DNA from: Dysidea avara
Lineage: Eukaryota > Porifera > Demospongiae > Dictyoceratida > Dysideidae
Reading direction: 5' to 3'
Assembly (NCBI RefSeq): GCF_963678975.1
Contig: NC_089273.1
Coordinates: 7,378,614-7,442,613, forward strand
Length of the DNA stretch: 64,000 nucleotides
The notes below the pieces were generated by a model. That model searched no databases. It worked only from the letters and a program-made list of their open reading frames with translations, and had not been told where the DNA came from. The translations under genes were made by a program, and so were the position numbers. Below, piece by piece: positions 1-57,550 of the stretch (its first letter is position 1; the number at the start of each line of letters is the position of its first letter).

Positions 1-699
1 CTGATTGAAACCAAATTTGCTGCAGAGTTGCCCACCAGCTAGGGAAGTCTACATTCCAAATTTGAAGGAAATCACTCAAGCCATTTCCGAGATACGAGCG
101 GCCAACGTTTCATTTTTTTTCTTCTTCTTCGTCTTTTCGCACACTTGCAAAAAATTGCTATAAAATGCAAACGCGTACTCTGATCGCCTTGAAATTTAGC
201 AGACAGAAAGGGGGTCCAAAGGCGAATCCTAGCATCACATTTGGTGCAAATCCGATGAATTATTCAGGAGTTATGACCGATTATTCGCGTAAAACAAGAT
301 CAATTTGTTGTCACGCCTACAGGGTAAACTGCTTCATGGAATGAGTTGAAAATTGCTATGTAGATGGAGTAACCATCGTAAGAGTGCCTTTTGGTGGCGT
401 GAAAGGAATCGAGATAAAAACCACGGAGATATAACACAAAACCCAACCTGTGTCACAATTACGCTATCAATTTTTAAGAATAAAAAAGGATTAGTTTTCA
501 CGCCTACTAGGCAAACCGCTTAGAGCAATGAGCTGAAAATCGGTGTATAGCTGGAATAATCTTCATTGAAAGTACTTGCAGTAGTATAGAAGAATTGGAT
601 TACAAACCACTGAGTTACGATTCGAAAGCCAACTCCGTGTAGCAAATGCAAGATCGAGATACTCTAATAGAACAGTCACCCTAATAGAGCATTCAGCTA

Positions 700-3600
700 A
701 TTTATTTACTCCATTATAAAATTCTATTACATTACAAGTTATTCTGTAGGGAGTTCAGCTGCAAACAGTTAATCTTATAGACAGTTCAGCAAGAAGCAAG
801 TCACCCTGTGGAAAGTTAAGCTACAAATATATCACTGCAGAGATTCAGAACATTACAAGTCACACTGAAGAGAGTTCAGCTATAAACAAGTCATGCACCC
901 TGTAGAGAATTCACCTACAATTAAGTCACTCTCTAGAGAATTCAGCTACACACAAGTCATTGTGGAGAGAGTTCAGCTACAAACAAATTACCCTGTAGAG
1001 AGATCAGCTACAAATAAACACTTTGCAGAGAGTTCAGCTACAAACAAATCAACCTTTAGAGCGATCAGCAACAAACAAATCAACTTGTAGAGAGATCAGC
1101 TAGAAACAAATCAATCTGCAGAGAGATCAGCTACAAACAAATCAGCTTGTAAAGAGATCAGTTACACACAAAGAGATAAGCTAGAAACAAATCACCCTGT
1201 AGAGAGTTCAGCTACAAAAAAATCACCCTGTAGAGACGTCAGCCAGAAACTAGACACAATGTAAGGAGTTCAGCTACAAGTAAATCACCCTGTAGAAAGT
1301 TCAGCTAAAACAAATCAACCTGCAGAGAGATCAGCTACAAACAAATCACTTTATAGAGAGTTCAGCTACAAATAAATTACCCTGTAGAGACATCGGCTAC
1401 AAACACATCAACCTGCAGAGAAATCAGCTACAAACAAATCACCCTGTAGAGAGATCAGATAGAAACTAGACACAATGAAAGGAGTTCAACTACAAACAAA
1501 TCACCCTGTAGAGCTATCAGCTAGAAACAAATCACCCTGAAGAGAGGTCAGCTACAAACAAATCACCCTGTAGAGAGATAAGCTACAAACAAATCACCCT
1601 GAAGAGAGGTCAGCTACAAACAAATCAACCTGTAGAGAGTCCAGCTACAAACAAATCACCCTGTAGAGACATCAGCTAGAAACTAGACACAATGTAAGGA
1701 GTTCAGCTACAAGCAAATCACCCTGTAGAGAGTTCAGCTACAAACAAATCAACCTGCAGAGAGATCAGCTACAAACAAATCACCCTGTAGAGAGATCAGC
1801 TAGTGGCTAGAAACTAGATACAATGTAAGGGGTTCAGTTACAAGCAAATCACCCTTTAGTGAGTTCAGCTACAAACAAATCAACCTGCAGTGAGATCACC
1901 TACAAAACAGCACCTTGTACAGACTTCAGTTACAAACAAATTACCCTGTAGAGAAATCGGCTAGAAGAATTCACCTTGTAGAGAGTTCAGCAACAAAGAA
2001 ACCACCATGTAGAGAGTTCAGCTGCAAACAAATCAGCCTGTAGAAAATTCAGTCACAAACAAATCGCCCAGTAGAAAGATCAGCTAGAAGAAGTTACCTT
2101 GTAGAGAGTTCAGCTACAAAGAAACCATTCTGTAAAGAGTTCAGCTGCAAACAAATCACCTGTACAGAATTCAGCTACAAACAAATCACCCTGTAGAGAG
2201 ATCAGCTAGAAGAAGTTACCTTGTAGACAGCTCAGCTACAAACAATTCACCCAGTACAGAGATCAGTTAGAAAAAGTTTCCTTGTAGAGAGTTCAGCTGC
2301 AAACAAGTCACCCTGTAGAAAATTCATCTACAAACATATCACTCTGTAAAAAGATCAGCTAGAAGAATTCACCTTGTAGAGAGTTCAGCTGCAAACAAGT
2401 CACCCTGTGGAAAATTCAGCTACAAACAAATCGCCCTGTAGAAAGATCAGCTAGAAGAAGTTACCTTGTAGAGAGTTCAGCTACAAAGAAATCATTCTGT
2501 AAAGAGCTCAGCTGCAAACAAATCACCTGTACAGAATTCAGCTACAAACAAATCACCCTGTAGAGAGATCTGCTAGAAGAAGTTACCTTGTAGACAGCTC
2601 AGCTACAAACAATTCACCCTGTACAGAGATCAGTTAGAAGAAGTTTCCTTGTAGAGAGTTCAGCTGCAAACAAGTCACCCTGTAGAAAATTCATCTACAA
2701 ACATATCACTCTGTAAAAAGATCAGCTAGAAGAATTCACCTTATAGAGAGTTCAGCTGCAAACAAGTCACCCTGTGGAAAATTCAGCTACAAACAAATCG
2801 CCCTGTAGAAAGATCAGCTAGAAGAAGTTACCTTGTAGAGAGTTCAGCTACAAAGAAATCATTCTGTAAAGAGCTCAGCTGCAAACAAATCACCTGTACA
2901 GAATTCAGCTACAAACAAATCACCCTGTAGAGAGATCAGCTACAAACAAATCAACCTGCAGAGAGATCAGCTACAAACAAATCACCCTGTAGAGAGATCA
3001 GCTAGTGGCTAGAAACTAGATACAATGTAAGGGGTTCAGTTACAAGCAAATCACCCTTTAGTGAGTTCAGCTACAAACAAATCAACCTGCAGTGAGATCA
3101 CCTACAAAACAGCACCTTGTACAGGCTTCAGTTACAAACAAATTACCCTATAGAGAAATCGGCTAGAAGAATTCACCTTGTAGAGAGTTCAGCAACAAAG
3201 AAACCACCATGTAGAGAGTTCAGCTGCAAACAAATCAGCCTGTAGAAAATTCAGTCACAAACAAATCGCCCAGTAGAAAGATCAGCTAGAAGAAGTTACC
3301 TTGTAGAGAGTTCAGCTACAAAGAAACCATTCTGTAAAGAGTTCAGCTGCAAACAAATCACCTGTACAGAATTCAGCTACAAACAAATCACCCTGTAGAG
3401 AGATCAGCTAGAAGAAGTTACCTTGTAGACAGCTCAGCTACAAACAATTCACCCTGTACAGAGATCAGTTAGAAAAAGTTTCCTTGTAGAGAGTTCAGCT
3501 GCAAACAAGTCACCCTGTAGAAAATTCATCTACAAACATATCACTCTGTAAAAAGATCAGCTAGAAGAATTCACCTTGTAGAGAGTTCAGCTGCAAACAA

Positions 3601-4077
3601 GTCACCCTGTGGAAAATTCAGCTACAAACAAATCGCCCTGTAGAAAGATCAGCTAGAAGAAGTTACCTTGTAGAGAGTTCAGCTACAAAGAAATCATTCT
3701 GTAAAGAGCTCAGCTGCAAACAAATCACCTGTACAGAATTCAGCTACAAACAAATCACCCTGTAGAGAGATCAGCTAGAAGAAGTTACCTTGTAGAGAGT
3801 TCAGCTACAAAGAAATTCTGTAAAGAGCTCAGCTGCAAACAAATCACCTGTACAGAATTCAGCTACAAACAAATCACCCTGTAGAGAGATCAACTAGAAG
3901 AAGTTACCTTGTAGATAGTTCAACTCCAAACAAATCACCCTGTTGAGAGATCAGCTAGAAGAAGAGTTACCTTGTAGATAGCTCTGCTGCAAACAATTCA
4001 CCCTGTAGAGAGATCAGCTAGAAGAAGTCACCTTGTAGAGTGTTAAGTTACAAAGAAACCACCATGCAGAGAGTTCT
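700..4077 (+). repeat. 30-31 bp satellite array of copy A
   Basis: Tandem units of about 30-31 bp follow the pattern GTAGAGAGTTCAGCTA, then an AAA-rich stretch, then TCACCCT. Variants end ACCTT or ACCAT or carry TAGAAGAAG. There is a higher-order repeat of about 1202 bp: the block beginning TAGTGGCTAGAAACTAGATA occurs at 1801 and 3003. A sub-period of about 367 bp is seen for TAGACAGCTCAGC at 2224, 2591 and 3426. Short frames in the array are chance open frames of the repeat. Confidence 0.95.
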
Positions 4078-4206
4078 GTAATAAATATATGTATTATATT
4101 ATATAATTTGTACATTTACTGATAAATTCAGAAATATTTAAAGTATTTAACATCTGCTTCATCTTTTCTTCTTCATGTGGTAAAGAAAAAAGATAGGTTA
4201 AAAAAG

Positions 4207-4237
4207 CCCCAAAGCCGGCCATAGGCCGACTTTGGGG
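4207..4237 (+). repeat. GC-rich stem-loop in element tail, copy A
   Basis: CCCCAAAGCCGGCC, loop ATA, then the near-perfect complement (one mismatch here) forms a 14 bp stem. It is conserved in the tail of every copy (about 9779, 36252, 52791, 55565). The stem motif CCCAAAGCCGGC resembles CCCAAGAAGCCGGC in the first 45 bases of the element head, a possible subterminal inverted or direct motif. Confidence 0.85.
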
Positions 4238-4261
4238 TATACAAATACAAAAAGAAGTGAA

Positions 4262-4590
4262 ATCTAATCCAAAACAGCCAAGCTGTAAAAAAAAGTGTGT
4301 GGCCCTCAAAAAGGCTATGGTGAAAAAAGATGTGAAATCGAAGGTGGCGGTAAAGAAATGGCTGTGATGGTAGGTTAATGGTAAAAATTTTAATAACGAC
4401 AATTCAGGTGAATTTGGTGCCGCTTGGTCTTGGCACAAAATTCACCTGAATTGTCGTTATTAAAATTTTTACCATTAACCTACCATCACAGCCATTTCTT
4501 GGCCACCACCTTGGATTGCACATCTTTTTTCACCATAGCCTTTTTGAGGGCCGCACACTTTTTTTACAGCTTGGCTGTTTTGGATTAGAT
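4262..4590. repeat. Foldback palindrome at 3' end of copy A
   Basis: Two arms of roughly 150 bp are nearly perfect reverse complements around a short spacer near 4426. The outer tips are ATCTAATCC and GGATTAGAT. The arms contain AGCCAAGCTGT and a GGCCCTC block. The flank beyond 4590 differs from the flanks of the other copies, so this tip is the element boundary. Apparent frames here are palindrome shadows. Confidence 0.9.
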
Positions 4591-4858: not shown

Positions 4859-5689
4859 ATCAAGACACACAGTAGTGTGTCGTGCGGCCCAAGAAGCCGG
4901 CGCGTAACACCCGTGAGTATATTGACAGGAAGAAAGAAAACGCAATTTTCGCACTTCCGTAGCTCTGTGCTGCCTTGATGAAACAAGACGATTTTTGCTG
5001 TGGACACTCCCTCCACCTTCAGCACTCCACATTCCAAATTAGAGCGAAATTGTTTCAAGCGTTCCCGAGATCTGCGACTTCAAAAATTGGCTTAGATTCT
5101 TCGTTGTTTTATTTTTCTTCTCATTTTTCTTCCTCTTTTCGCACACTTACAAAAACTGCTATAAAACGCGAACGCTATATCCGATTGCCTTGAAATTTAG
5201 TACACAGAAGGGGGGTATAAAGGCGAATCTCTGTACCAACTTTGGCTAGGATACGATAAACTGGAAAAGAGTTATGATCGATTATTCACGAAAAATAACA
5301 CCAATATGTTGTCACGCCTACAGGGTAAACCGTGTATGGGAAGAAGCTGAAAATCAGTGGGTGAATAGGTTAACTATTGAACCTTAAAGCTTTTGTGGTT
5401 TGAAAGAAATCGAGCTAAAAGCCAGGAAGATACAACGAAAAAACTAACAGTGTATATCAATTATGCAATCGAGATTAGCTAATAAAAAACGATTATTGCC
5501 ACGCCTACCAGATAAACCGCTAGGGAGAATGCTTTGAAAATCGCTGTATAGAAGGAGTAATCATCTTAGAAAGGCTCTTCAATGGTGTAGAAGAATCAGA
5601 CTTAAAGCCACGGAGTTATAACATGAAATCCAACTTGGTGCAGCAAGTGAGAGATCGAGATACTCTAATAGAGCAGTCACCCTAATAGA

Positions 5690-8600
5690 GCAGTCACCCT
5701 GAAGAGAATTCAAGAGATCAGCTAGAAACAAGTAACCTGTATAGAGATCAGCTAGAAACAAGTCACCTTGTAGAGAGATAAGCTACAAACAATTCACCCT
5801 GTAGAGAGATCAGCTAGAAAATTTACCTTATAGGGAGTTCATGCAACTATGGAAAGGGATAGTTCAGCTAGAAGAAATCACCTTGTAGAGTTCAGCTACA
5901 AAGAAACTACCATGTAGAGAGTTCAACTACAAACAAATCACCCTGTAGAGAGATCAATACCTTGTAGAGAGTTCAGCTACAAAGAAACCATCATGTAGAG
6001 AGTTTAGCTGCAAACAAATCACCTGTAGAGAGTTCAGCTACAAACAAATCTCCCTGTAGAGAGATCAGCTAGGAGAAGTTTCCTTGTAGAGAGTTCAGCT
6101 ACAAACAAATCACCCTGTAGAGAGATCAGCTAGAAGAAGTCACCTTGCAGAGAGTTCAGTTACAAAGAAACCATCATGTAGAAAGTTCAGCTACAAACTA
6201 GTGACCTTGTAGAGACATCAGCTAAAAGAAGTTACCTTATAGAGAGTTCAGCTACAGAGAAACTATCATGTAGAGAGTTCAGCTGCAAACAAATCACAGG
6301 TAGAGAATTCAGCTACAAGCAAATCTCTCTGTAGAGAGATCAGCTAGACGAAGTTTCCTTGTAGAGAGTTCAGCTACAAACAAATCACCCTGTAGAAAGA
6401 TCAGCTAGAAGAAATTACCTTGTAGAGAGTTCAGCTACAAAGAAACCATCATGTAGAGAGTTCAGCTGCAAACAAAATACCTGTAGAGAGTTCAGCTACA
6501 AACAAATCTCCCTGTAGAGAGATCAGCTAGAAGAAGTTACCTTGTAGAGAGTTCAACTACAAACAAATCACCCTGTAGAAAGATTAGCTAGAAGGAGTCA
6601 CCTTGTGGAGAGTTCAGTTACAAAGAAACCATCATGTAGAGAGTTCAGCTACAAACACTGCTTGAAGTACCTTAGTTTACTACAGTGGTATATCCCCAGT
6701 ATATGGAACAGTTAAATTGTTTGTTATTTTAGTAGTTTTTCAGTAAACCCGCATTACTGATGTTTTACTGAGAGTTTAAAACTTAGTAAAATAATTATGT
6801 TCTATATACTTAAGTTTACTGACACTTTACTATCAGTATAACTACAGTAAGGCATCTTAACAAATTAGTAAACTAAGAACCTTCAAGCAGTGAAACTAGT
6901 GACCTTGTACAGACATCAGCTAAAATAAATTACCTTGTACAGAGTTCAGCTACAAAGAAACCATCATGTAGAGAGTTCAGCTGCAAACAAATCACCTGTA
7001 GAGAGTTCAGCTACAAACAAATCTCCCTGTAGAGAGATCAGCTAGAAGAAGTTACCTTGTGGAGAGTTCAGCTTCAAAGAAATCACCTTCTAGAAAGATC
7101 AGCTAGAAGAAGTCACCTTGTAGAGAGTTCAGCTACAAAGAACCATCATGTAGAGAGTTCAGCTGCAAACAAATCACCTGTAGACAGTTCAGCTACAAAC
7201 AAATCTCCCTGTAGAAAGATCAGCTAGAAGAAGTTACCTTGTAGAGAGTTCAGCTACAAAGAACCATCATGTAGAGAGTTCAGCTGCAAACAAATCACCT
7301 GTAGAGAGTTAAGTTACAAACAAATCACCCTGTAGAGAGATCAATAGAAGAAGTTACCTTGTAGATAGTTCAGCTACAAACAAATCACCCTGTAGAAAGA
7401 TCAGCTAGAAGAAATTACCTTGTAGAGAGTTCAGCTACAAAGAAACCATCATGTAGAGAGTTCAGCTGCAAACAAAATACCTGTAGAGAGTTCAGCTACA
7501 AACAAATCTCCCTGTAGAGAGATCAGCTAGAAGAAGTTACCTTGTAGAGAGTTCAACTACAAAGAAACCATCATGTAGAGAGTTCAGCTGCAAACAAATC
7601 ACCTGTAGAGAGTTCAGCTACAAACAAATCTCCCTGTAGAGAGAACAGTTAAAAGAAGTTTCCTTGTAGAGAGTTCAGCTACAAACAAATCACCCTGTAG
7701 AAAGATCAGCTAGAAGGAGTCACCTTGTGGAGAGTTCAGTTACAAAGAAACCATCATGTAGAGAGTTCAGTTACAAACTAGTGACCTTGTACAGACATCA
7801 GCTAAAATAAATTACCTTGTACAGAGTTCAGCTACAAAGAAACCATCATGTAGAGAGTTCAGCTGCAAACAAATCACCTGTAGAGAGTTCAGCTATAAAC
7901 AAATCTCCCTGTAGAGAGATCAGCTAGAAGAAGTTACCTTGTGGAGAGTTCAGCTTCAAAGAAATCACCCTCTAGAAAGATCAGCTAGAAGAAGTCACCT
8001 TGTAGAGAGTTCAGCTACAAAGAACCATCATGTAGAGAGTTCAACTGCAAACAAATCACCTGTAGACAGTTCAGCTACAAACAAATCTCCCTGTAGAAAG
8101 ATCAGCTAGAAGAAGTCACCTTGTAGAGAGTTCAGCTACAAAGAACCATCATGTAGAGAGTTCAGCTGCAAACAAATCACCTGTAGAGAGTTAAGTTACA
8201 AACAAATCACCCTGTAGAGAGATCAATAGAAGAAGTTACCTTGTAGAGAGTTCAGCTACAAACAAATCACCCTGTAGAAAGATCAGCTAGAAGAAATTAC
8301 CTTGTAGAGAGTTCAGCTACAAAGAAACCATCATGTAGAGAGTTCAGCTGCAAACAAAATACCTGTAGAGAGTTCAGCTACAAACAAATCTCCCTGTAGA
8401 GAGATCAGCTAGAAGAAGTTACCTTGTAGAGAGTTCAACTACAAAGAAACCATCATGTAGAGAGTTCAGCTGCAAACAAATCACCTGTAGAGAGTTCAGC
8501 TACAAACAAATCTCCCTGTAGAGAGAACAGTTAAAAGAAGTTTCCTTGTAGAGAGTTCAGCTACAAACAAATCACCCTGTAGAAAGATCAGCTAGAAGGA

Positions 8601-9645
8601 GTCACCTTGTGGAGAGTTCAGTTACAAAGAAACCATCATGTAGAGAGTTCAGTTACAAACTAGTGACCTTGTACAGACATCAGCTAAAATAAATTACCTT
8701 GTACAGAGTTCAGCTACAAAGAAACCATCATGTAGAGAGTTCAGCTGCAAACAAATCACCTGTAGAGAGTTCAGCTACAAACAAATCTCCCTGTAGAGAG
8801 ATCAGCTAGAAGAAGTTACCTTGTGGAGAATTCAGCTTCAAAGAAATCACCCTCTAGAAAGATCAGCTAGAAGAAGTCACCTTGTAGAGAGTTCAGCTAC
8901 AAAGAACCATCATGTAGAGAGTTCAACTGCAAACAAATCACCTGTAGACAGTTCAGCTACAAACAAATCTCCCTGTAGAAAGATCAGCTAGAAGAAGTTA
9001 CCTTGTAGAGAGTTCAACTACAAAGAACCATCATGTAGAGAGTTCAGCTGCAAACAAATCACCTGTAGAGAGTTAAGTTACAAACAAATCACCCTGTAGA
9101 GAGATCAATAGAAGAAGTTACCTTGTAGAGAGTTCAGCTACAAAGAAACCATCATGTAGAGAGTTCAGCTGCAAAGAAATCACTTGTAGAGAGTTCAGCT
9201 ACAAACAAATCACCCTGTAGAGAGATCAGCAAAAGAAATTACCTTGTAGAGAGTTCAGTTACAAAGAAACCACCATGTAGAGAGTTCAGCTTCAAAGAAA
9301 TCACCCTGTAGAAAATTCAGCCACAAACAATTTGTCCTGTAGAAAGATCAGTTAGAAGAAGTTACCTTGTAGAGAGTTCAGCTACAAAGAAATTATTCTG
9401 TAAAGAGCTCAGCTGCAAACAGATCACCTGCACAGAATTCAGCTACAAACAAATCACCCTGTAGAGAGATCAGCTAGAAGAAGTTACCTTGTAGATAGTT
9501 CAGCTATAAACAAATCACCCTGTAGAGAGATCAGCTAGAAGAAGTTACCTTGTAGATTGTTCAGCTACTAACAATTCACCCTGTAGAGAGGGCAGCAAGA
9601 AGAAGTCACCTTGTAGAGTGTTCAGTTACAAAGAAACCACCATGG
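5690..9645 (+). repeat. 30-31 bp satellite array of copy B
   Basis: Tandem 30-31 bp units alternate between CAGCTACAAACAAATC and CAGCTAGAAGAAGTTACC types. A higher-order repeat of 881-882 bp is visible: GACCTTGTACAGACATCAGC occurs at 6901, 7783 and 8664, and GGAGA(G/A)TTCAGCTTCAAAG occurs at 7061, 7943 and 8825. The array is interrupted once by a MITE. Confidence 0.95.
6656..6892. mobile_element. CACTA-like MITE nested in satellite, 3-bp target duplication
   Basis: A 237 bp insert with terminal inverted repeats: CACTGCTTGAAG at the left, CTTCAAGCAGTG at the right, with extended similarity through TTAGTTTACT. It is flanked by AAA on both sides (6653-6655, 6893-6895). Removing the insert and one AAA restores the satellite unit seen uninterrupted at 6190 and 7772 (TACAAACTAGTGACC). 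A CACTG start with a 3-bp duplication suggests the CACTA/EnSpm superfamily. There is no coding capacity. Confidence 0.85.
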
Positions 9646-9832
9646 AGAGTTCTGTAATAAATATATGTATTATACATATAATTTGTACATTTACTGATAA
9701 AATCAGAAACATTTAAAGTACATCTGCTTCATTTTTTCTTCTTCCTGTGGTAAAGAAAAAAAAGACAGGTTAAAAAGTCCCAAAGCCGGCCATAGGCCGG
9801 CTTTGTGGTATACAAATACAAAAAGAAATGAA

Positions 9833-10158
9833 ATCTAATCCAAAACAGCCAAGCTGTAAAAAAACAGTGTGGCCCTCAAAAGGCTATGGTGAAAAAAGAT
9901 GTGAAATCCAAGGTGGCGGCCAAGAAATGGCTGTGATGGTAGGTTAATGGTAAAAATTTTAATAACGGCAATTTAGGTGAAATTTTTGCCAAGACCAAGG
10001 GCACAAAAATTCACCTGAATTGTCGTTATTAAAATTTTTACCATTAACCTACCATCACAGCCATTTCTTGGCCGCCACCTTCGATTTCACATCTTTTTTC
10101 ACCATAGCCTTTTGAGGGCCGCACTGTTTTTTTACAGCTTGGCTGTTTTGGATTAGAT
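9833..10158. repeat. Foldback palindrome at 3' end of copy B
   Basis: Same palindrome as at 4262-4590, with tips ATCTAATC and GATTAGAT and arms of about 150 bp. The tail stem-loop precedes it at about 9779-9808. The centre differs slightly from copy A, containing GCCAAGACCAAGGGC. Confidence 0.9.
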
Positions 10159-11460: not shown

Positions 11461-11482
11461 TGAGCTTGCAAAAAAACTTCAC

Positions 11483-11899
11483 AAACAGGTATAAGAAAAA
11501 AATTGGAATTTTAAATTAGATTAGGGACAGTGTATAATGCTGCAATAAACAGTACTGAAATAAGCTGGATCGGAGTAGTACGTAATGTCCAAATACTGGA
11601 AAACAATAAGAAGCGAATATCCCTACTGTGCATTGAGTGTAGCACAGTAGGGATATTCACTTCTTATTGTTTTACAGTATTTGGACATTACGTACTACTC
11701 TGATCCAGCTTGTTTCAGTACTTTTTATTGCAGCATTATACACTGAGTGTAGCACAGTAGGGATATTCGCTTCTTATTGTTTTACAGTACTTGGACATTA
11801 CGTACTACTCTGATCCAGCTTATTTCAGTACTTTTTATTGCAGCATTATACACTGTCCCTAATCTAATTTAAGATTCCAATTTTTTCTTATACTTGTTT
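11483..11899. mobile_element. Palindromic MITE with a duplicated right arm
   Basis: The termini AAACAGGTATAAG and CTTATACTTGTTT are inverted repeats that extend through AATTGGAATTTTAAATTAGATTAGGGACAGTG (short pieces matched). The centre is CCCTACTGTGC opposite GCACAGTAGGG. The right arm is present twice, 110 bp apart (AGCACAGTAG at 11641 and 11751), so the element is left arm, right arm, right arm. A related palindrome is at 60237-60541. Confidence 0.8.
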
Positions 11900-12107
11900 A
11901 GGTAATGAATTACATGTGTAAGCAAAGTAACTTGAGTTATATTACCACTTTTTATAGCATACGTATTTCATTATATCACTTTGTTGCCACAAAAGTAATA
12001 ATTATTACATAATGTATTACCCCCAACACTACCCACAAAGCATGAAAATTCTAATTATTTCACATGCACCCATATGGGTGATTTCCCAAAATTGTCAGAT
12101 GTCCATA

Positions 12108-12358
12108 TGTGACTGGGCCTGCGAAAACAGGGCATGTGGGCACATGATTTTTGCCTAATTTTTCAAACTTCCTTGACTCATAACGTTTTATACCACTATA
12201 CTATGTCAATGAAATTTTTAGTACATAGTAAGCATTTAATTGGCTTTATGATGCAAGTTACAGAATGCAAATATTCTGTTCCAGTACTGTGATATGACCT
12301 TTAATGTGACAGAGTGTAGTCTGTGCCCACATGCCCTGTTTTTGCAGGCCCAGTCACA
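12108..12358. mobile_element. TA-flanked TGTGACC MITE, copy 1
   Basis: 251 bp with long terminal inverted repeats: TGTGACTGGGCCTGC and its complement, extending through AAAACAGGGCATGTGGGCACA. It is flanked by TA on both sides (12106-12107, 12359-12360). The TA flanks fit Tc1/mariner-like insertion. There is no ORF. Confidence 0.8.
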
Positions 12359-13120
12359 TATGTGCCAGCTTGTTATGCCACTTCTGGGCTCTTGCTATCA
12401 TTAATGTACACATTTATTACCTCTTTATTTCGTAACACATGGAAGAAGAATATGGCAAAGCCCTAAACATGGAATAAATAGCATGTATTCGCATACATCA
12501 AACAACATAAAGGACTAGTAACATTAATAATGGCATTGTGACTTAGTTTGTTTCCAATAGTAGGAGAATAATCTCAAATTGTTTGTTTATGTAATTGTGC
12601 TGTATTGTAGCCAATGGGATAACAGAATTACAGAAGCCATGGCCATTTAAGCAGAAGAATGAAATGTTGGTCAATAGCATTCCAACAATAAAAGCTGTAA
12701 AAGTAATGATGTTTTGGACAAACAACCAGATTTGCTGGCACAAGAACTCTTTTAAGTACAATATATAAATAACCAATCAGATTCTAAAGCTATTTAAATG
12801 CTGAAATGATAAGATCACCAGTTACAATGGCCACACAGAATTGGATAAATGTGCACTACAAAGCATGAAGAGTAGTTACTATGTATACACACATTTGAGT
12901 GCAAATCTGGAATAATTGCCCTCATAACAGCTAATCTCATTCTGTTACTCATACAATTATCCTCTAACTGCACACATGTAATGTGTGTCATTACCTATAC
13001 TAATTATTCAAATATTGTGAGTGCCATATTTACACAGCCCTTGTATCCATGTGTTGTATGTACACAGCATCAAGAGAGCTGTAAATGTGGCAGAATTATT
13101 GTATATAACAATATAATATA

Positions 13121-14977: not shown

Positions 14978-14985
14978 CTGTGCAT

Positions 14986-17087: not shown

Positions 17088-17212
17088 TATTGAAGTATAC
17101 CAAGCTTACACTACAAAATAAAAGTAGGAGCTCATAGCTCTCCTATCCCCTTTTCTACTACATATTATAATTATGTACAATGATACTCTCTGATAACTAG
17201 TATGTTACTTAC

Positions 17213-19390: not shown

Positions 19391-19449
19391 CTATACAACA
19401 TACATTCAAATTACAAAACACCATCACACTGTGTTTGTCGTGTACATAC

Positions 19450-36200: not shown

Positions 36201-36306
36201 GCTTCATCTTTTCTTCTTCCTGTAGTAAAGAAACAATGACAGGTTAAAAAGCCCTAAAGCCGGCCTATGGACGGCTTTGGGGTATACAAATACAAAAAGA
36301 AGTGAA

Positions 36307-40000: not shown

Positions 40001-40140
40001 TACCTTGTAGAGTGTTCAGCTACATAGAAACCATGATGTAGAGAGTTCAGCTGCAAACGAATCACCCAGTAGAAAGTTCAGCTATGAACAGATCACCCTG
40101 TAGAGAGTTCAGCTACAAACAAATCACCCTGTAGAGAGTT

Positions 40141-44240: not shown

Positions 44241-44849
44241 CAGCTAGAAACAAATCACCCTGTAGAGAGTTCAGTCAGAATAAGTCACATTGTAGAGAGT
44301 TCAGCTATAAAGAAACTACCATGTAGAGAGTTCAGCTGCAAACAAACACCCTTTAGAGAACTCAGTTACAAACAAATCGCCCTGTAGAAAGATCAGCTAG
44401 AAGAATTTACCTTGTAGGGAGTTCAGCTACAAAGAAATCATCATGTAGAGAGTTCAGCTGCAAACAAATCATCCTGTAGAGAGTTCAGCTATGAAAAGAT
44501 CACCCTGTAGAGAGTTCAGCTAGAAGAAGTCACCTTTTAGAGTGTTCAGCTACAAAGCAACCACCATGTAGAGAGTTCAGCTGCAAACAAATCACCCTGT
44601 AGAGAATTCAGCTACAACTAAATCGCCCTGTAGAGAGACCAGCTAGAAACAAGTCACCCTGTAGACAGATCAGCTAGAAGAAGTTACCTTGTAGAGAGTT
44701 CACCTGCAAATGAATCATCTTGTAGATAATTCAGCTGCAAACAAACCGCCCTGTAGAAAGATCAGCTGGAAGAAGTTACCTTGTAGAGAATTCAGTTACA
44801 AATAAACCATCATGTAGAGAGTTCAGCTGCAAAGAAATCACCCTGTAGA

Positions 44850-47800
44850 GCGTTTAAATCAACCTGCAGAGAGTTCGGCTGCAAACAGTTCACCCTGTAG
44901 AGAGATCAGCTAGAAGAGGTTACCTTGTAGAGTGTTCAGCTACATAGAAACCATGATGTAGAGAGTTCAGCTGCAAACAAATCACCCAGTAGAAAGTTCA
45001 GCTATGAACAGATCACCCTGTAGAGAGTTCAGCTACAAACAAATCACCCTGTAGAGAGTTCAGTTACAAAGAAACCACCATGTAGATAGTTCAGCTGCAA
45101 ACAAATCACCCTGTAGAAAGTTCAGCTATGAACATATGACCCTGTTGAGAGTTCAGTTAGAAACAAGTCATCCTGTAGAGAGATCAGCAAGAAGTATCAC
45201 CTTGTAGAGAGTTCAGCTACAAACAAATCACCTCTAGAGAGTTCAGCTACAAACAAATCACCCTGTACAGAGATCAACTAGAAGAAGTCACCTTGTAGAA
45301 AGTTCAGCTATAAAGAAACCACCATGTAGAGAGTTCAGCAGCAAATAAATCCCCTGTAGAGGGTTCAGCTAGAAACAAGTCACCCTGTATAGAAATCAGC
45401 TAGAAACAAGTCACCCTATAGAGAGTTCAGCTAGAAGAAGTCACATTGTAGAGAGTTCAGCACAATGAAACTACCATGTAGAGAGTTCAGCTGCAACAAA
45501 TCACCCTGTAGAGAACTCAGCTACAAACAAATCACCCTGTAGAAAGATCAGCTAGAAGAAGTTACCTTGTAGGGAGTTCAGCTACGAACAGATCACCCTG
45601 TAGAGAGTTCAGCTAAAAACAAATCACCCTGTAGACAGTTCAGTTACAAAGAAACCACCATGTAGAGAGTTCAGCTGCAATAAAATCAATCACTCTGTAG
45701 AGAGTTCAGCTAGAAAAAGTCACCTTGTAGAGAGTTAAGCTGCAAATAAATCACCCTGTAGAGAATTCAGCTACAAACAAATCACCCTGTAGAAAGATCA
45801 GCTAGAAGAAGTCACCTTGTAGAGACTTCAGCTACAAAGAAACCACCATGTAGAGAGTTTAGCTGCTAACAAATCACCCTGTAGGGAGTTCAGCTCGAAA
45901 CAAGTCACCCTGTAGAGAGATCAGCTAGAAACAAGTCACCCTGTAGGGAGTTCAGTCAGAAGAAGTCACATTGTAGAGAGTTCAGCTATAAAGAAACTAC
46001 CATTTAGAGAGTTCAGCTGCAAACAAACACCCTGTAGTGAACTCAGCTACAAACAAATTGCCCTGTAGAATGATCAGCTAGAAGAATTTACCTTGTAGGG
46101 AGTTCAGCTACAAACAAATCACCCTGTAGAGAGTTCAGCTACAAAGAAATCATCATGTATAGAGTTCAGTTGCATACAAATCATCCTGTAGAGAGTTCAG
46201 CTATGAAATGATCACCCTGTAGAGAGTTCAGCTAGAAGAAGTCACCTTTTAGAGAGTTCAGCTGCAAAGCAACCACCATGTAGAGAGTTCAGCTGCAAAC
46301 AAATCACCCTGTAGAGATTTCAACTACAAACTAATCGCCCTGTAGAGAGACCAGCTAGAAACAAGTCACCCTGTAGACAGATCATCTAGAAGAAGTTACC
46401 TTGTAGAGAGTTCGGCTGCAAATGAATCACCTTGTAGATAATTCAGCTGCAAACAAACCGCCCTGTAGAAAGATCAGCTAGATGAAGTTACCTTGTAGAG
46501 AGTTCAGTTACAAATAAACCATCATGTAGAGAGTTCAGCTGCAAAGAAATCACCCTGTAGAGCGTTTAAATCACCCTGCAGAGAGTTCGGCTGCAAACAG
46601 TTCACTCAGTAGAGAGATCAGCTAGAAGAGGTTACCTTGTAGAGTGTTCAGCTACAAAGAAACCATCATGTAGAGAGTCCAGCTGCAAACAAATCACCCA
46701 GTAGAAAGTTCAGCTATGAACAGATCACTCTGTAGAGAGTTCAGCTACAAACAAATCACCATGTAGAGAGTTCAGTTACAAAGAAACCATCATGTAGAGA
46801 GTTCAGCTGCAAACAAATCACCCTGTAGAAAGTTCAGCTATGAACATATGACCCTGTTGAGAGTTCAGTTAGAAACAAGCCATCCTGTAGAGAGATCAGC
46901 TAGAAGTATCACCTTGTAGAGACTTCAGCTATAAAGAAACCACCATATAGAGAGTTTAGCTGCAAACAAATCACCCTGTAGGGAGTTCAGCTAGAAACAA
47001 GTCACCCTGTAGAGAGTTCAGTCAGAAGAAGTCACATTGTAGAGAGTTCAGCTATAAAGAAACTACCATGTAGAGAGTTCAGCTGCAAACAAACACCCTG
47101 TAGAGAACTCAGCTACAAACTAATCGCCCTGTGGAAAGATCAGCTAGAAGAATTTACCTTGTAGGGAGTTCAGCTACAAACAAATCACCCTGTAGAGAGT
47201 TCAGCTACAAAGAAATCATCATGTAGAGAGTTCAGCTGCAAACAAATCATCCTGTAGAGAGTTCAGCTATGAAAAGATCACCCTGTAGAGAGTTCAGTTA
47301 GAAGAAGCCTTTTAGAGTGTTCAGCTACAAAGCAACCACCATGTAGAGAGTTCAGCTGCAAACAAATCACCCTGTAGAGAATTCAGCTACAAACAAATCG
47401 CCCTGTAGAGAGACCAGCTAGAAACAAGTCACCCTGTAGACAGATCAGTTGGAAGAAGTTACCTTGTAGAGAGTTCGGCTGCAAATAAATCACCTTGTAG
47501 ATAATTTAGCTGCAAACAAACCGCCCTGTAGAAAGATCAGCTGGAAGAAGTTACCTTGTAGAGAATTCAGTTACAAATAAACCATCATGTAGAGAGTTCA
47601 GCTGCAAAGAAATCACCCTGTAGAGCGTTTAAATCAACCTGCAGAGAGTTCGGCTGCAAACAGTTCACCCTGTAGTGAGATCAGCTAGAAGAGGTTACCT
47701 TGTAGAGTGTTCAGCTACATAGAAACCATGATGTAGGGAGTTCAGCTGCAAACAAATCACCCAGTAGAAAGTTCAGCTATGAACAGATCACCCTGTAGAG

Positions 47801-50390
47801 AGTTCAGCTACAAACAAATCACCCTGTAGAGAGTTCAGTTACAAAGAAACCACCATGTAGATAGTTCAGCTGCAAACAAATCACCCTGTAGAAAGTTCAG
47901 CTATGAACATATGACCCTGTTGAGAGTTCAGTTAGAAACAAGTCATCCTGTAGAGAGATCAGCAAGAAGTATCACCTTGTAGAGAGTTCAGCTACAAACA
48001 AATCACCTCTAGAGAGTTCAGCTACAAACAAATCACCCTGTACAGAGATCAACTAGAAGAAGTCACCTTGTAGAAAGTTCAGCTATAAAGAAACCACCAT
48101 GTAGAGAGTTCAGCAGCAAATAAATCCCCTGTAGAGGGTTCAGCTAGAAACAAGTCACCCTGTACAGAAATCAGCTAGAAACAAGTCACCCTATAGAGAG
48201 TTCAGCTAGAAGAAGTCACATTGTAGAGAGTTCAGCACAATGAAACTACCATGTAGAGAGTTCAGCTGCAACAAATCACCCTGTAGAGAACTCAGCTACA
48301 AACAAATCTCCTGTAGAAAGATCAGCTAGAAGAAGTTACCTTGTAGGGAGTTCAGCTACGAACAGATCACCCTGTAGAGAGTTCAGCTAAAAACAAATCA
48401 CCCTGTAGACAGTTCAGTTACAAAGAAACCACCATGTAGAGAGTTCAGCTGCAATAAAATCAATCACTCTGTAGAGAGTTCAGCTAGAAAAAGTCACCTT
48501 GTAGAGAGTTAAGCTGCAAATAAATCACCCTGTAGAGAATTCAGCTACAAACAAATCACCCTGTAGAAAGATCAGCTAGAAGAAGTCACCTTGTAGAGAC
48601 TTCAGCTACAAAGAAACCACCATGTAGAGAGTTTAGCTGCTAACAAATCGCCCTGTAGGGAGTTCAGCTCGAAACAAGTCACCCTGTAGAGAGATCAGCT
48701 AGAAACAAGTCACCCTGTAGGGAGTTCAGTCAGAAGAAGTCACATTGTAGATAGTTCAGCTATAAAGAAACTACCATTTAGAGAGTTCAGCTGCAAACAA
48801 ACACCCTGTAGTGAACTCAGCTACAAACAAATTGCCCTGTAGAATGATCAGCTAGAAGAATTTACCTTGTAGGGAGTTCAGCTACAAACAAATCACCCTG
48901 TAGAGAGTTCAGCTACAAAGAAATCATCATGTAGAGAGTTCAGCTGCAAACAAATCATCCTGTAGAGAGTTCAGCTATGAAAAGATCACCCTGTAGAGAG
49001 TTCAGTTAGAAGAAGCCTTTTAGAGTGTTCAGCTACAAAGCAACCACCATGTAGAGAGTTCAGCTGCAAACAAATCACCCTGTAGAGAATTCAGCTACAA
49101 ACAAATCGCCCTGTAGAGAGACCAGCTAGAAACAAGTCACCCTGTAGACAGATCAGTTGGAAGAAGTTACCTTGTAGAGAGTTCGGCTGCAAATAAATCA
49201 CCTTGTAGATAATTTAGCTGCAAACAAACCGCCCTGTAGAAAGATCAGCTGGAAGAAGTTACCTTGTAGAGAATTCAGTTACAAATAAACCATCATGTAG
49301 AGAGTTCAGCTGCAAAGAAATCACCCTGTAGAGCGTTTAAATCACCCTTCAGAGAGTTCGGCTGCAAACAGTTCACTCAGTAGAGAGATCAGCTAGAAGA
49401 GGTTACCTTGTAGAGTGTTCAGCTACAAAGAAACCATCATGTAGAGAGTCCAGCTGCAAACAAATCACCCAGTAGAAAGTTCAGCTATGAACAGATCACT
49501 CTGTAGAGAGTTCAGCTACAAACAAATCACCATGTAGAGAGTTCAGTTACAAAGAAACCATCATGTAGAGAGTTCAGCTGCAAACAAATCACCCTGTAGA
49601 AAGTTCAGCTATGAACATATGACCCTGTTGAGAGTTCAGTTAGAAACAAGCCATCCTGTAGAGAGATCAGCTAGAAGTATCACCTTGTAGAGACTTCAGC
49701 TACAAAGAAACCACCATATAGAGAGTTTAGCTGCAAACAAATCACCCTGTAGGGAGTTCAGCTAGAAACAAGTCACCCTGTAGAGAGTTCAGTCAGAAGA
49801 AGTCACATTGTAGAGAGTTCAGCTATAAAGAAACTACCATGTAGAGAGTTCAGCTGCAAACAAACACCCTGTAGAGAACTCAGCTACAAACTAATCGCCC
49901 TGTGGAAAGATCAGCTAGAAGAATTTACCTTGTAGGGAGTTCAGCTACAAACAAATCACCCTGTAGAGAGTTCAGCTACAAAGAAATCATCATGTAGAGA
50001 GTTCAGCTGCAAACAAATCATCCTGTAGAGAGTTCAGCTATGAAAAGATCACCCTGTAGAGAGTTCAGTTAGAAGAAGCCTTTTAGAGAGTTCAGCTACA
50101 AAGCAACCACCATGTAGAGAGTTCAGCTGCAAACAAATCACCCTGTAGAGAATTCAGCTACAAACAAATCGCCCTGTAGAGAGACCAGCTAGAAACAAGT
50201 CACCCTGTAGACAGATCAGTTGGAAGAAGTTACCTTGTAGAGAGTTCGGCTGCAAATAAATCACCTTGTAGATAATTTAGCTGCAAACAAACCGCCCTGT
50301 AGAAAGATCAGCTAGAAGAAGTTACCTTGTAGAGAGTTCAGTTACAAATAAACCATCATGTAGAGAGTTCAGCTGCAAAGAACCCTGCAG
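44850..50390 (+). repeat. About 2,775 bp tandem duplication inside the array
   Basis: CGTTTAAATCAACCTGCAGA is at 44851 and 47626 (offset 2775). GCTATGAACAGATCACC is offset about 2777, and AGCGTTTAAATCACCCT is at 46561 and 49332 (offset 2771), so small indels separate the two blocks. More substitutions are visible than in the 2,050 bp pair. Confidence 0.82.
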
Positions 50391-50850
50391 AGAATCACTG
50401 GGTTCTTAAATCACCCTGCAGAGAGTTTGGCTGCAAACAGTTCACCCTGTAGAGAGATCAGCTAGAAGAGGTTACTTTGTAGAGTGTTCAGCTACAAAGA
50501 AACCATCATGTAGAGAGTTCAGCTACAAACAAATCACTCTGTAGAGAGATCATCTACAAAAAGATCACCCTGTAGAGAGTTCAGCTAGAAGAAGTCACCT
50601 TGTAGAAAGTTCAGCTATAAAGAAACCACCATGTAGAGAGTTCAGCTGCAAATAAATCCCCTGTAGAGGGTTCAGCTAGAAACAAGTCACCCTGTAGAGA
50701 GATCAGCTATAAACAAGTTATCCTGTAGAGAGTTCAGCTAGAAGAAGTCACATTGTAGAGAGTTCAGCACAAAGAAACTACCATGTAGAGAGTTCAGCTG
50801 CAACAAATCACCCTGTAGAGAACTCAGCTACAAGCAAATCGCCCTGTAGA

Positions 50851-51296
50851 TAGGGACCCACCGATTATGCTGGCATAATTATGAGCATAATAGGTGTCTG
50901 AAAGCATTGAGCATAATGCTAGCATAATAGGTAGAATATTTGTGCAATAATATGAATTCTTGCTTATCAAAATAGCTAACACAGAAAGATCGATATACTC
51001 TAATAAAACAGTCAGTAACTCTAATAGAACAATCATATAGATGACTATTCTATTAGAGTATATCGATCTTTTCTGTGATATGCATTTTGACAAGTAAGTT
51101 TGTGCTTCAGCCACTTACTATTTATCCATAATTTGGAAATTATTAGCAGAGCATGAGAACTGAGGCATAAATAATTGGGCATAATTTGAGCATAATGGGT
51201 AAGCATTGAGCATAAATTTAAGCATAAAAGGTAAATTTTTTAGCAGTGCAGCATAGCATATTAGGTAAAATTATGAGCATAATCGGCGGATCCCTA
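50851..51296. mobile_element. hAT-like MITE nested in satellite, 8-bp target duplication
   Basis: A 446 bp insert. The termini TAGGGACCCACCGATTATGC and complement of TAGGGATCCGCCGATTATGC are inverted repeats. Identical 8-mers CCTGTAGA flank it (50843-50850, 51297-51304), and removing one restores the satellite unit. The interior has many GCATAAT motifs plus an inverted pair GATCGATATACTCTAATA / TATTAGAGTATATCGATC at about 50990-51070. An open frame across it is not coding in any recognised way. Confidence 0.9.
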
Positions 51297-52845
51297 CCTG
51301 TAGAAAGATCAGCTAGAAGAAGTTACCTTGTAGGGAGTTCAGCTACGAACAGATCACCCTGTAGAGAGTTCAGCTAAAAACAAATCACTCTGTAGAGAGT
51401 TCGGTTACAAAGAAACCACCATGTAGAGAGTTCAGCTGCAAAAAAACCAATCACTCTGTAGAGAGTTCAGCTAGAAGAAGTCACCTTGTAGAGAGTTCAG
51501 CTGCAAATAAATCACCCTGTAGAAAGATCAGCTAGAAGAAATTACCTTGTAGAGACTTCAGCTACAAAGAAACCACCATGTAGAGAGTTCAGCTGCAAAC
51601 AAATCACCCTGTAGGGAGTTCAGCTAGAAACAAGTCACCCTGTAGAGAGATCAGCTAGAAACAAGTCACCCTGTAGAGAGTTCAGTCAGAAGAAGTTACA
51701 TTGTAGAGAGTTCAGGTATAAAGAAACTACCATGTAGAGAGTTCAGCTGCAAACAAACACCCTGTAGTGAACTCAGCTGCAAATAAATCACCCTGTAGAA
51801 AGATCAGCTAGAAGAAATTACCTTGTAGAGACTTCAGCTACAAAGAAACCACCATGTAGAGAGTTCAGCTGCAAACAAATCACCCTGTAGGGAGTTCAGC
51901 TAGAAACAAGACACCCTGTAGAGAGATTAGCTAGAAACAAGTCACCCTGTAGAGAGTTCAGTCAGAAGAAGTTACATTGTAGAGAGTTCAGCTATAAAGA
52001 AACTACCATGTAGAGAGCTCAGCTGCAAACAAACACCCTGTAGGGAGTTCAGCTAGAAACAAGTCACCCTGTAGAGAACTCAGCTACAAACAAATCGCCC
52101 GGTAGAAAGATCAGCTAGAAGAATTTACCTTGTAGGGAGTTCAGCTACAAACAAATCACCCTGTAGAGAGTTCAGCTACAAAGAAATCACCATGTAGAGA
52201 GTTCAGCTGCAAACAAATCATCCTGTAGAGAGTTCAGCTATGAAAAGATCACCCTGTAGAGAGTTCAGCTAGAAGAAGTCACCTTTTAGAGAGTTCAGCT
52301 ACAAAGCAACCACCATGTAGAGAGTTCAGCTGCAAACAAATCACCCTGTAGAGAATTCAGCTACAAACAAATCGCCCTGTAGAGAGACCAGCTAGAAACA
52401 AGTCACCCTGTAGACAGATCAGCTAGAAGAAGTTACCTTGTAGAGAGTTCGGCTGCAAACAAATCACCATGTAGAGAATTCAACTACAAACAGATAACCC
52501 TGCAGAGAGTTCAGCTAGAGTCAAGTCACCCTTTAGAGAGAATCCTGTAAAGAGTTCATCTACGTACAAGCAAATCACTCTGTAGAGAGTTCAGCTACAT
52601 TTCAAGTTACCCAGTAAAGAGATCAGCTGCAAATTATCCTGTGGGGATTAATTGACATGTAATAAATATATCCATTATATATATAATTTGTACATTTTCT
52701 GATAAAATCAGAATGAGTTAAAGTATTTATAAAATCTGCTTCATCTTTTTTCTTTTTCCTGTGGTAAAGAAGAAAATATAGGTTAAAAAACCCCAAAGCT
52801 GGCCATAGGCTGGCTTTGGGATATACAAATGCAAAAAGAAGTGAA

Positions 52846-53179
52846 ATCTAATCAAAAACAGCCAAGCTGTAAAAAAAAGGAGTGCAGCCCTTGAAAAGGC
52901 TATGATGAAAAAAGTTTTGAAATCCAAGGTGGCGGCCAAGAAATGGCTGTGATGGTAGATTAATGGTAAAAAAATTTTATAACTACAATTCAGGTGAATT
53001 TTGTGCCAATTGACCAAGCGGCACCAAATTCATCTGAATTGTCGTCATTAAAAATTTTACCATTAACCTACCATCACAGCCATTTCTTGGCCACCACCTT
53101 GGATTTCACAACTTTTTTCACCATAGCCTTTTCAAGGGCCGCACTCTTTTTTTTACAGCTTGACTGTTTTTGATTAGAT
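52846..53179. repeat. Foldback palindrome at 3' end of copy D
   Basis: Same palindrome family, tips ATCTAATCA and TGATTAGAT, slightly more diverged (GACTGTTTTTGATTAG). The tail stem-loop is at 52791-52820. Confidence 0.88.
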
Positions 53180-55211: not shown

Positions 55212-55540
55212 ATCTAACCCAAAACAGCCAAGCTGTAAAAAAAGGTTGTGGCCCTCAAAAAGGCTATGGTGAAGAAAGATGTGAAATCCAAGGTGGCGGC
55301 CAAGAAATGGCTGTCTTGGTAGGTTAATGGTAAAAATTTTAATAACGACAATTCAGGTGAATTTTTGTGCCACTTGGTCTTGGAAAAAAATTCACCTAAA
55401 TTGCCGTTATTAAAAGTTTTACCATTAACCTTCCATCACCGCCACTTCTTGGCCGCCACCTTGGATTTCACATCTTTTTTCACCATAGCCTTTTTGAGGG
55501 CCACACACTTTTTTTACAGCTTGGCTGTTTTGGGTTAGAT
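55212..55540. repeat. Foldback palindrome of copy E
   Basis: Same palindrome, tips ATCTAACCC and GGGTTAGAT. Both arms carry the same tip change (C instead of T relative to the other copies), so the two arms changed together. Confidence 0.88.
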
Positions 55541-55739
55541 TTCACTTATTTTTGTATTTGTATACCCCAAAGCCAGCCATAGGCCGGCTTTGGGACTGTC
55601 TTTTTGTCTTTACCACAGGAAGAAGAAAAGATGAAGTGGATGTACTTAAACTATTTCTGATTTTATCAGTAAATGTACAAATTATATATCGAATACATAT
55701 ACTTATTACAGAACTCTCCATGGTGGTTTCTTTGTAACT

Positions 55740-57550
55740 GAACACTCTACAAAGTAACTTCTTCTTGCTGCTCTCTCTACAGGGTGAATTGTTTGTAGCT
55801 GAACAATCTACAAGGTAACTTCTTCTAGCTGATCTTTCTATAGGGTGATTTGTTTGTAGCTGAATTCTGTGCAGGTGATTTGTTTGCAGCTGAGCTCTTT
55901 ACAGAATGGTTGCTATGTAACTGAACTCTCTACAAGGTAACTTCTTCTAACTGATCTTTCTACAGGACAATTTGTTTGTGGCTGAATTTTCCACAGAGTG
56001 ATTTCTTTGCAGCTGAACTTTCTACATGGTGGCTTCTTTGTAACTGAACTCTCTACAAGGTAATTTCTTCTAGCTGATCTCTCTACAGGAAGATTTGTTT
56101 GTAGCTGAACTCTCTACAGGTGATTTGTTTGCAGCTGAACTCTCTACATGATGGTTTCTTTATAGCTGAACTCTCTACAAGGAAACTTCTTCTAGCTGAT
56201 CTCTCTACAGGGAGATTTGTTTGTAGCTGAACTCTATACAGGTGATTTGTTTGCAGCTGAACTCCCTACATGATGGTTCTTTGTAGCTGAACTCTCTACA
56301 AGGTGACTGCTTCTAGCTGACCTTTCTACAGGGAGATTTGTTTGTAGCTGAACTCTCTACATGATGGTTTCTTTGTAGCTGAACTCTCTACAAGATAACT
56401 TCTTCTAGCTGATCTCTCTACAGAGAGATTTGTTTGTAGCTGAACTCTCTACAGGTGATTGTTTGCAGCTGAACTCTCTACATGATAGTTTCTTTGTAGC
56501 TGAACTCTCCACAAGGTACCTTCTTCTAGCTGATCTCTCTACAGGGAGAATTGTTTGTAGCTGAACTCTCTACAGGTGATTTGTTTGCAGCTGAACTCTC
56601 TGCATGATAGTTCTTTGTAGCTGAACTCTCTACAAGGTGACTTCTTCTAGCTGACCTTTCTACAGGGAGATTTGTTTGTAGCTGAACTCTCTACAGGTGA
56701 TCTGTTTGCAGCTGAAATCTCTACATGATGGTTTCTTTTTAGCTGAACTCTCTACAAGGTAATTTCTTCTAGCTGATCTCTCTACAGAGAGATTTGCTTG
56801 TAGCTGAACTCTCTACAGGTGATTTGTTTGCAGCTGAACTATCTACATGATGGTTTCTTTGTAGCTGAACTCTCCACAAGGTAACTTCTTCTAGCTGATC
56901 TCTCTACAGGGAGATTTGTTTGTAGCTGACCTATCTACAGGGTGATTTTTTTGTAGCTGAACTTTCTACATACAAAGTGATTTGTTCTAGCTGGTCTCTC
57001 TACAGGATGACTTGTTTCTAGCTGATCTCTCTGCAGGGTGACTTGTTTCTAGCTGAACTCTACCGGGTGATCTGTTCGTAGCCGAACTCTCTACAGGATG
57101 ATTTGTTTACAGCTGAACTATCTACATGGTGGTTTCTTTGCAGCTGAATTCTCTACAAGGTGACTTCTTCTAACTGATCTTTCTACAGGGAAATTTGTTT
57201 GTGGCAGAATTTTCTACAGGGTGATTTCTTTGCAGCTGAACTCTCTACATGGTGATTTCTTTGTACTGTAGCTGAACTCTCTACAAGGTAATTTCTTCTA
57301 GCTGATCTCTCTACAGGGTGATTTGTTTGTAGCTGAATTCTATACTGGTGATTTGTTTGCAGCTGAGCTCTTCACAGAATGGTTTCTTTGTAGCTGAACT
57401 CTCTACAAGGTATCTTCTTTTAACTGAACTCTCCACAGGGAGATTTGTTTGCAGCTGAACTTTCTTCATGATGGTTTCTTTGTAGCTGAACTCTCTACAA
57501 GGTAACTTCTTTTAGCTGAACTCCCTATATGGTGGTTTCTTTGTAGCTGG
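55740..57550 (-). repeat. 30-31 bp satellite array of copy E
   Basis: Reverse-complement units (TGTTTGTAGCTGAACTCTCTACAGG type) in tandem for about 1.8 kb, most similar in unit mix to copy B (units lacking a C, giving CACCTGTAGAG). Confidence 0.94.

Follow-up and report, generated by a model that had tools for sequence, protein, structure and literature searches.

How do kilobase-long arrays of the same satellite come to lie, at several places in a sponge genome, between the same neighbouring sequences? The question is raised by a 64,000-nucleotide stretch of the 550.8 Mb, 108-contig genome of the demosponge Dysidea avara (contig C2, C2:7378614-7442613; hereafter the window). The original prediction described four copies on the + strand (A-D) and one inverted copy (E) of a composite element with a common order of parts, namely a head, a satellite array, a tail with a stem-loop and a palindrome. 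This arrangement is confirmed by our module map, and self-BLAST of the window with the satellite masked recovers heads and tail/palindrome units common to the copies. The predicted boundaries also stood: the complete copies B, C and D begin at the same left base, all with A^TCAAGACACAC (the caret marks the edge of the element), and the copies share the right-hand terminal base, ending ATTAGA^T. Our best explanation, which we consider probable, is a very abundant non-autonomous Helitron-like rolling-circle element that carries the satellite as cargo and has a 3' palindrome of ~327 bp which at times inverts during replication or transposition. A point against this explanation is that no transposition was observed.

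The palindrome was sampled with a palindrome-only query, which is blind to the side of the tail; the best 40 of 1,059 candidates were taken together with adjacent and window palindromes. The consensus of 46 palindromes, oriented alike beforehand, is 327 bp long. Its arms match except at the pair of positions 37/291, its apex is short and asymmetric, and the DNA is predicted to fold into a single long hairpin. Judged by the side of the tail, 27 of these palindromes are flipped and 19 unflipped relative to copy A, a count from which locus L015, with a two-sided tail, was left out. Exact patterns composed of tail edge, gap and loop occur genome-wide 624 times in the unflipped and 523 times in the flipped form (controls 0), a palindrome with two tails scoring once in each class. 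The question is what exactly changes sides. Unflipped palindromes (n=19) read TG at 37/291 in 13 cases, CG in 4, TA in 2 and CA in 0, while flipped ones (n=27) read CA in 15, TA in 6, CG in 5 and TG in 1 (TG versus CA by orientation, Fisher p=2e-7). Because this arm marker swaps along with the loop, the sequences indicate that the palindrome inverts as a unit, outer arm marker and loop together. At position 135 the odd base lies in the left arm of six unflipped palindromes and in the right arm of one, and in the right arm of six flipped palindromes and in the left arm of one; five of the six left-arm cases among the unflipped are C-type copies and hence not independent. At positions 77 and 89, variant in few copies, a swap is likewise seen. 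Less favourable to inversion of the whole unit are position 85, which is mixed between orientations, and positions 134, 136, 142 and 153 near the loop, which vary almost only in flipped copies and may reflect a loop-alignment effect.

The two arms also appear to have been copied at times from each other, because mirrored substitutions exceed expectation (41 versus 0.9 expected from independent changes; 27 versus 0.76 without C-type copies), although this sum includes shared ancestry and 11 of the 41 represent one change at position 33. The inner palindrome edge at the tail reads GTGAAA^TCTAATCC, that is, GGATTAGA^TTTCAC on the opposite strand, again with T next. The full 3' terminus is therefore present at both palindrome ends on opposite strands, as GGATTAGA^T facing outward and GGATTAGA^TTTCACT facing inward. 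We considered L015 as a fresh inverted dimer sharing one palindrome and rejected this, its two sides being only 77% identical over 657 columns (array and tail); at least three other palindromes with a two-sided tail are found among the matches listed. A shorter palindrome variant, with 3' termini 179-204 bp apart versus about 296-311, accounts for 6 of 36 pairs among the matches listed (on C1, for example, 372081/372269, 4163261/4163460 and 4204145/4204344). The parts of the literature that we searched yielded no report of palindrome inversion in a Helitron.

How might such an inversion arise? In the cycle that we envisage, an autonomous Helitron would provide a HUH Rep/helicase in trans, which would nick the 5' TC and displace one strand through head and satellite until it stops at the 3' hairpin. 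Arrays would lengthen or shorten as repeat units are gained or lost. The palindrome would fold into a hairpin in replication or transposition, one of its arms would at times template the other, and the hairpin would now and then be resolved or copied in such a way that the whole palindrome becomes inverted. Two opposed 3' termini flanking a hairpin would be what a HUH nickase requires to release it and to re-form it in either sense. Rolling-circle transposition as in Helraiser would explain both the ends and the target. The terminal hairpins of parvoviruses are known for flip and flop, the terminal palindrome occurring in two orientations, and for terminal resolution by Rep. A more specific proposal, which we advance tentatively and regard as rather doubtful, is that the 3' end of the sponge element is processed like a parvoviral telomere, a HUH Rep nicking both termini, transferring the hairpin and re-forming it inverted. 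The likeness lies in a terminal palindrome that seems to invert as a unit and in the HUH Rep that the proposed pathway would employ. Unlike in parvoviruses, the palindrome here occupies one end only, its orientation is partly inherited, the element is a chromosomal transposon and terminal resolution is presumed.

The most serious alternative, to which we give slightly less than even weight, contests only the last step of this explanation. According to it, the element is the same, and its palindrome inverts after insertion via host processes (cruciform template switching or arm recombination) unrelated to transposition. Long palindromes are generally unstable, which counts in its favour, and orientation is mostly inherited within subfamilies, which suits rare host events; furthermore, palindromes common to two different tails (L015) point to recombination. 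However, crossovers spread over 150 bp arms would uncouple 37/291 from the loop, and of the 29 informative copies this coupling was kept in 28 and lost in 1. The coupling is compatible with switching near the hairpin base, and we regard host template switching at that base and HUH nicking as about equally likely.

A further alternative, which we find improbable, is that two ancient subfamilies with opposite palindromes multiplied in parallel, inversion not having recurred. We built a tree from tail and arms, with the loop and the 37/291 marker masked and the arms pre-oriented on the assumption of whole inversion. On this tree orientation needs 9 changes (bootstrap range 8-11, the bootstrap being not fully settled), and single-change trees make up 0% of 200 bootstrap trees. 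A single clade of unflipped copies was rejected by the approximately unbiased (AU) test (p=0.0027, 46 rows), and the rejection held when seven short-tail rows, two D-type rows and L033 were dropped (p=0.0038, 36 rows). The closest tail is that of a flipped copy for 7 of the 19 unflipped copies. In addition, the C-type motif of the arms, CCTGAGAAA, is combined on C1 with either loop: among the matches listed, and as judged by eye, it is present in about 73 of the 95 unflipped rows and in 12 of the 69 flipped ones, and 3 of these 12 are palindromes with a two-sided tail. C-type unflipped palindromes number 268+240 in the whole genome. Several observations nevertheless speak against free inversion at every copying. 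Orientation clusters on the tree (9 changes versus 14.9 for shuffled labels), the starred branches alone force one change only, and the short-tail clade (six C-type copies and L026) is uniformly unflipped, 7 of 7. The starred branches, the low tree supports and the uniform C-type clade of the sample would also suit two long-standing subfamilies. The tails-only tree, in which the signal is weak, needs 12 changes versus 14.8 for shuffled labels. Our reading of the sequences is that inversion is recurrent but rare.

The ends bear on the kind of element involved. The 5' end is A^TCAAGACACACGGTAGTGTGTCGTGCGGCC with a 7-bp hairpin, GACACAC/GTGTGTC. The head is about 0.85 kb long, and the AT-rich tail of ~180 bp contains a stem-loop and is shortened in C-type copies. 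The 3' end is ACAGC-TTG-GCTGT-TTTGGATTAGA^T; its hairpin ends 11 nt before the 3' terminus and is embedded in the larger palindrome. Among BLAST hits reaching the first three bases, A precedes TC in 19 of 19 left ends. At the other end, the base after ATTAGA/G is T in 40 and C in 1 of the 41 right ends that could be counted, the motif being absent in 5 of 46 (L015, with its two-sided tail, was left out of this count). All 12 complete copies have A^TC and ATTAGA, with T as the next base in 11 and C in 1, so that AT stands at both sides of 11 of the 12, the exception being L023. No terminal inverted repeat is visible between the two ends, and no coding capacity was found in the element.

Canonical Helitrons have a 5' TC, insert between A and T, have no inverted terminal repeats and carry a hairpin about 11 nt before a 3' CTRR, according to the parts of PMC4067079 consulted. 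In Helraiser, as described in the sections of PMC4778049 that we used, the hairpin acts as terminator, RTS cleavage was seen on both strands of single-stranded substrates, and targets are AT. The sponge element shares with them the 5' TC, the A/T insertion, the lack of terminal inverted repeats and a hairpin ~11 nt from the 3' end. It departs from canonical Helitrons in that its 3' end is ATTAG or ATTAGA, so that ATTAGA or TTAG stands in place of CTRR, a point against its assignment; it also differs in that the terminal hairpin lies within a 327 bp palindrome and in that no coding capacity was found. Helentrons, HINE and DINE-1, again from the parts of PMC4067079 consulted, have a palindromic 5' subterminal repeat, central tandem repeats, a 3' stem-loop and a TT target. 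Our element resembles them in its 5' subterminal palindrome, which lies a few bases inside the terminus, in its central tandem repeats and in its 3' stem-loop. Unlike them it has an A^T target, and its 3' subterminal inverted repeat is a weakly significant 9-mer (GTGCGGCCC, equalled in 72 of 5,000 shuffles). We therefore file it neither as a canonical Helitron, because CTRR is lacking, nor as a Helentron, because insertion is not into TT, and regard it as a Helitron-like element whose terminal trait is new. The original prediction had mentioned foldback and Helentron kinds while leaving the element unrecognised; a Helitron-like assignment can now be added, as can the two orientations of the palindrome, which the first reading could not reveal.

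Foldback elements have long inverted repeats at both ends. Here the palindrome is 3' only, and this counts against an element of the cut-and-paste or foldback kind that duplicates an AT target site, an explanation that we consider very unlikely. The AT flanks on both sides of 11 of 12 copies would fit an AT duplication equally well; the ends without a visible terminal inverted repeat and the Helitron-like geometry of the 3' hairpin speak against it.

That the copies were transposed, as the original prediction had proposed with the satellite as cargo, holds on the basis of end pairing, unrelated-looking flanks and paralogous empty sites. Exact 31-nt 5' ends number 3,368+3,243 = 6,611 genome-wide (backward control 0) and exact 25-nt 3' ends 5,139+5,159 = 10,298 (backward control 0). 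Both palindrome arms can bear an exact 3' end, so ends outnumber palindromes: the first 100 3' ends among the matches listed correspond to 64 palindromes, 36 two-arm and 28 one-arm, which scales to an estimated 6,600 or so palindromes genome-wide. Had heads and palindromes mostly occurred apart, or had flanks been homologous beyond the boundaries, the prediction itself would have yielded to segmental duplication. They occur together, the satellite abutting the fetched palindrome's tail in 18 of 20 first-batch loci; the two exceptions are L009, with a nested copy in between, and L026, in which a partial tail and the palindrome are present and the satellite is absent. In 9 of the 20 first-fetched loci (L009, L015, L016, L018, L019 and L022-L025) an entire copy is present with its parts in the common order, and in ten further ones the stretch is too short or on the wrong side to show the palindrome's whole copy. 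Of 50 exact 5' termini on C1 below 4.84 Mb, 31 are matched by an exact 3' terminus at a distance of 0.3-20 kb on the side where it should lie; wrong-side pairing amounts to 16 of 50, and 1,000 circular shifts gave a mean of 11.0 and a maximum of 22. The flanks listed look unrelated by eye, barring nested or tail-to-tail cases.

Empty sites were sought by comparing the joined flanks of the 12 complete copies with the 20 fetched loci and the window, and all those found are paralogues, not alleles. Four of the 12 copies have such a site aligning across the junction (L009, L025 and the window copies winB and winC). The empty site of L025 lies in L015 (79% identity) and that of L009 inside other copies of the element (90% identity), both exactly at A^T; the empty junctions read ...TA^TT... 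and ...TA^TA... with nothing added. The remaining evidence is less clean and weakens our explanation: the winC empty site is 71% identical and off by one base, that of winB is ambiguous by 4 bases, and an AT target-site duplication would give the same empty site as a duplication-free A^T insertion. Because heads and palindromes co-occur, flanks look unrelated and empty sites exist, we favour transposition of a defined element, and segmental duplication of a satellite region without transposition, which the close spacing of the window copies might suggest, is already refuted by the constant ends, unrelated-looking flanks, empty sites and thousands of copies, and its probability is negligible.

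Some loci have tandem 5' ends, with two 5' termini 55-263 bp apart (L012 7735-8617; C1:3043190/3043259; C1:4878982/4879037). End duplications resembling these are known from other Helitrons.

The satellite has a monomer of 30-31 bp. Its arrays, where measured, are 1.1-14.6 kb long, that of copy D, which is interrupted, being the longest. We aligned 14 copy pairs globally, taking array identity without gaps. Heads and arrays are 98.5% and 98.8% identical between the inner copy of L009 and L010, and 96.1% and 94.6% between L023 and L024; in the remaining 12 pairs arrays are 82.6-94.0% and heads 91.1-97.3% identical. Besides long gaps, values of about 30-32 and 61 come up repeatedly among the four largest gaps of each pair. 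The arrays of related copies are colinear. Because array identity tracks head identity and unit-sized gaps recur, arrays are inherited with the element, not created anew per site, and change length partly by whole units. In the window, Tandem Repeats Finder places 30-31 bp arrays at 743-4076, 5713-9649, 30318-52540 (interrupted) and 55714-57549, and the copies with their parts are as follows.

1-4589, + strand: copy A, the 5' part of its head lying left of the window; satellite 743-4077, tail 4078-4262, palindrome 4263-4589.
4207-4237, + strand: tail stem-loop of copy A, 14 bp with one mismatch.
4860-10157, + strand: copy B, complete, 5,298 bp; head 4860-5712, satellite to about 9653, tail 9654-9832.
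4864-4881, + strand: 5'-terminal hairpin GACACAC/GTGTGTC of copy B, from a fold of the family sequence.
9833-10157, + strand: palindrome of copy B, flipped orientation.
10134-10157, + strand: 3' end of copy B, hairpin ACAGC-TTG-GCTGT, then TTTGGATTAGA, then host T.
29441-36632, + strand: copy C, complete, 7,192 bp; head 29441-30317, satellite to 36202, short tail, palindrome 36308-36632.
37195-53178, + strand: copy D, complete, 15,984 bp; head 37195-38082, satellite to about 52636, tail 52658-52845.
52847-53178, + strand: palindrome of copy D, flipped.
55213-57553, - strand: copy E; palindrome 55213-55540 (flipped), tail 55542-55713, satellite to about 57553.

Copy B sits within a palindromic repeat, of which an approximate empty paralogue exists in L028, and the array of copy D is broken near 50855-51293. 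Copy E looks 5'-truncated because its array runs into DNA without a head; neither window self-BLAST nor the module map found a head-like match beyond it.

The closest known system is Cg_HINE of the oyster Crassostrea gigas. From the sections of PMC7492417 consulted, this is a non-autonomous rolling-circle-like element with satellite-like central arrays, no reported target duplication and empty sites; it has TT targets, monomers mostly of 140-180 bp and an average of about 2-5 monomers per array. Both are dispersed non-autonomous elements with a satellite-like array as central repeat and with empty sites. In contrast to Cg_HINE, the sponge element has A^T targets, monomers of 30-31 bp, kilobase-long arrays and the two-orientation palindrome of ~327 bp. 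Satellite DNA would thus travel as freight on a rolling-circle-like element in a sponge, an animal remote from the oysters and flies that provide the other cases, with single copies loaded with as much as about 14 kb of array. The words 'transposable', 'helitron' and 'satellite' have 0 occurrences in the main text of the D. avara genome paper (PMC12909245), and the letters of the element's satellite and terminus had no match in the parts of the literature searched. The two orientations of the palindrome may be read as a record of how the hairpin was processed. With arm and loop markers in thousands of copies, termination and copying at Helitron 3' ends can be addressed; in the portions of the literature searched, experimental evidence on these ends comes from one reconstructed bat element. 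If the 3' end were indeed parvoviral-telomere-like, rolling-hairpin resolution would take place within a eukaryotic transposon cycle, a mechanistic link between Helitrons and single-stranded DNA viruses.

As to the source of the enzyme, we infer an autonomous Helitron partner. A profile search with PF14214 gave 230 candidates, of which 150 were scored, and some matches lie in frames of 1,500-1,600 aa. L048 has a 1,594-aa frame with Rep and PIF1 confirmed, and L051 a 1,822-aa Rep and PIF1 frame with an OTU domain. L049 and L050 represent one family, with termini TCTATATTATAAGAG...CTAG^T and a hairpin before the 3' end, and L048 is a relative. Evidence for the partner is weakened in that no autonomous element with the termini of our element was found in the five Rep loci fetched (L048-L052 of the 150 scored); for L048, L051 and L052 the ends could not be placed, and they may fall outside the 9.5 kb read. 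L049/L050 were rejected as the partner on account of their termini, which are unlike those of the satellite element. A sixth Rep locus (C1:51679543), with a palindrome of our family ~4 kb downstream, was likewise rejected, as it is a nested L049-type Helitron. The latter (C1, about 51677680-51683650) lies at the satellite/tail junction of one of our elements, at a TA-rich point; in L009, a copy of the satellite element itself is inserted into the TA-rich start of another copy's tail.

The window contains further repeats. Two other palindromic repeats of ~300-400 bp (11483-11899 and 60237-60541), about 71% alike, have related pieces in L016, L022, L026 and L028; window self-BLAST gave no match between them and the element's palindrome, and they would belong to another foldback/MITE-like family. 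Left-adjacent to copy C lies an open frame of 635 aa (27223-29130, - strand) with a reverse transcriptase domain (PF00078), LINE-like. A retroelement stretch, presumably BEL/Pao, comprises a frame with PF00665 and PF18701 at 60757-61911 (- strand) and a second frame at 62878-63315 (- strand). Finally, an inverted repeat pair of 257 bp (12105-12361 and 13283-13539) is 84% complementary, its members lying 921 bp apart.

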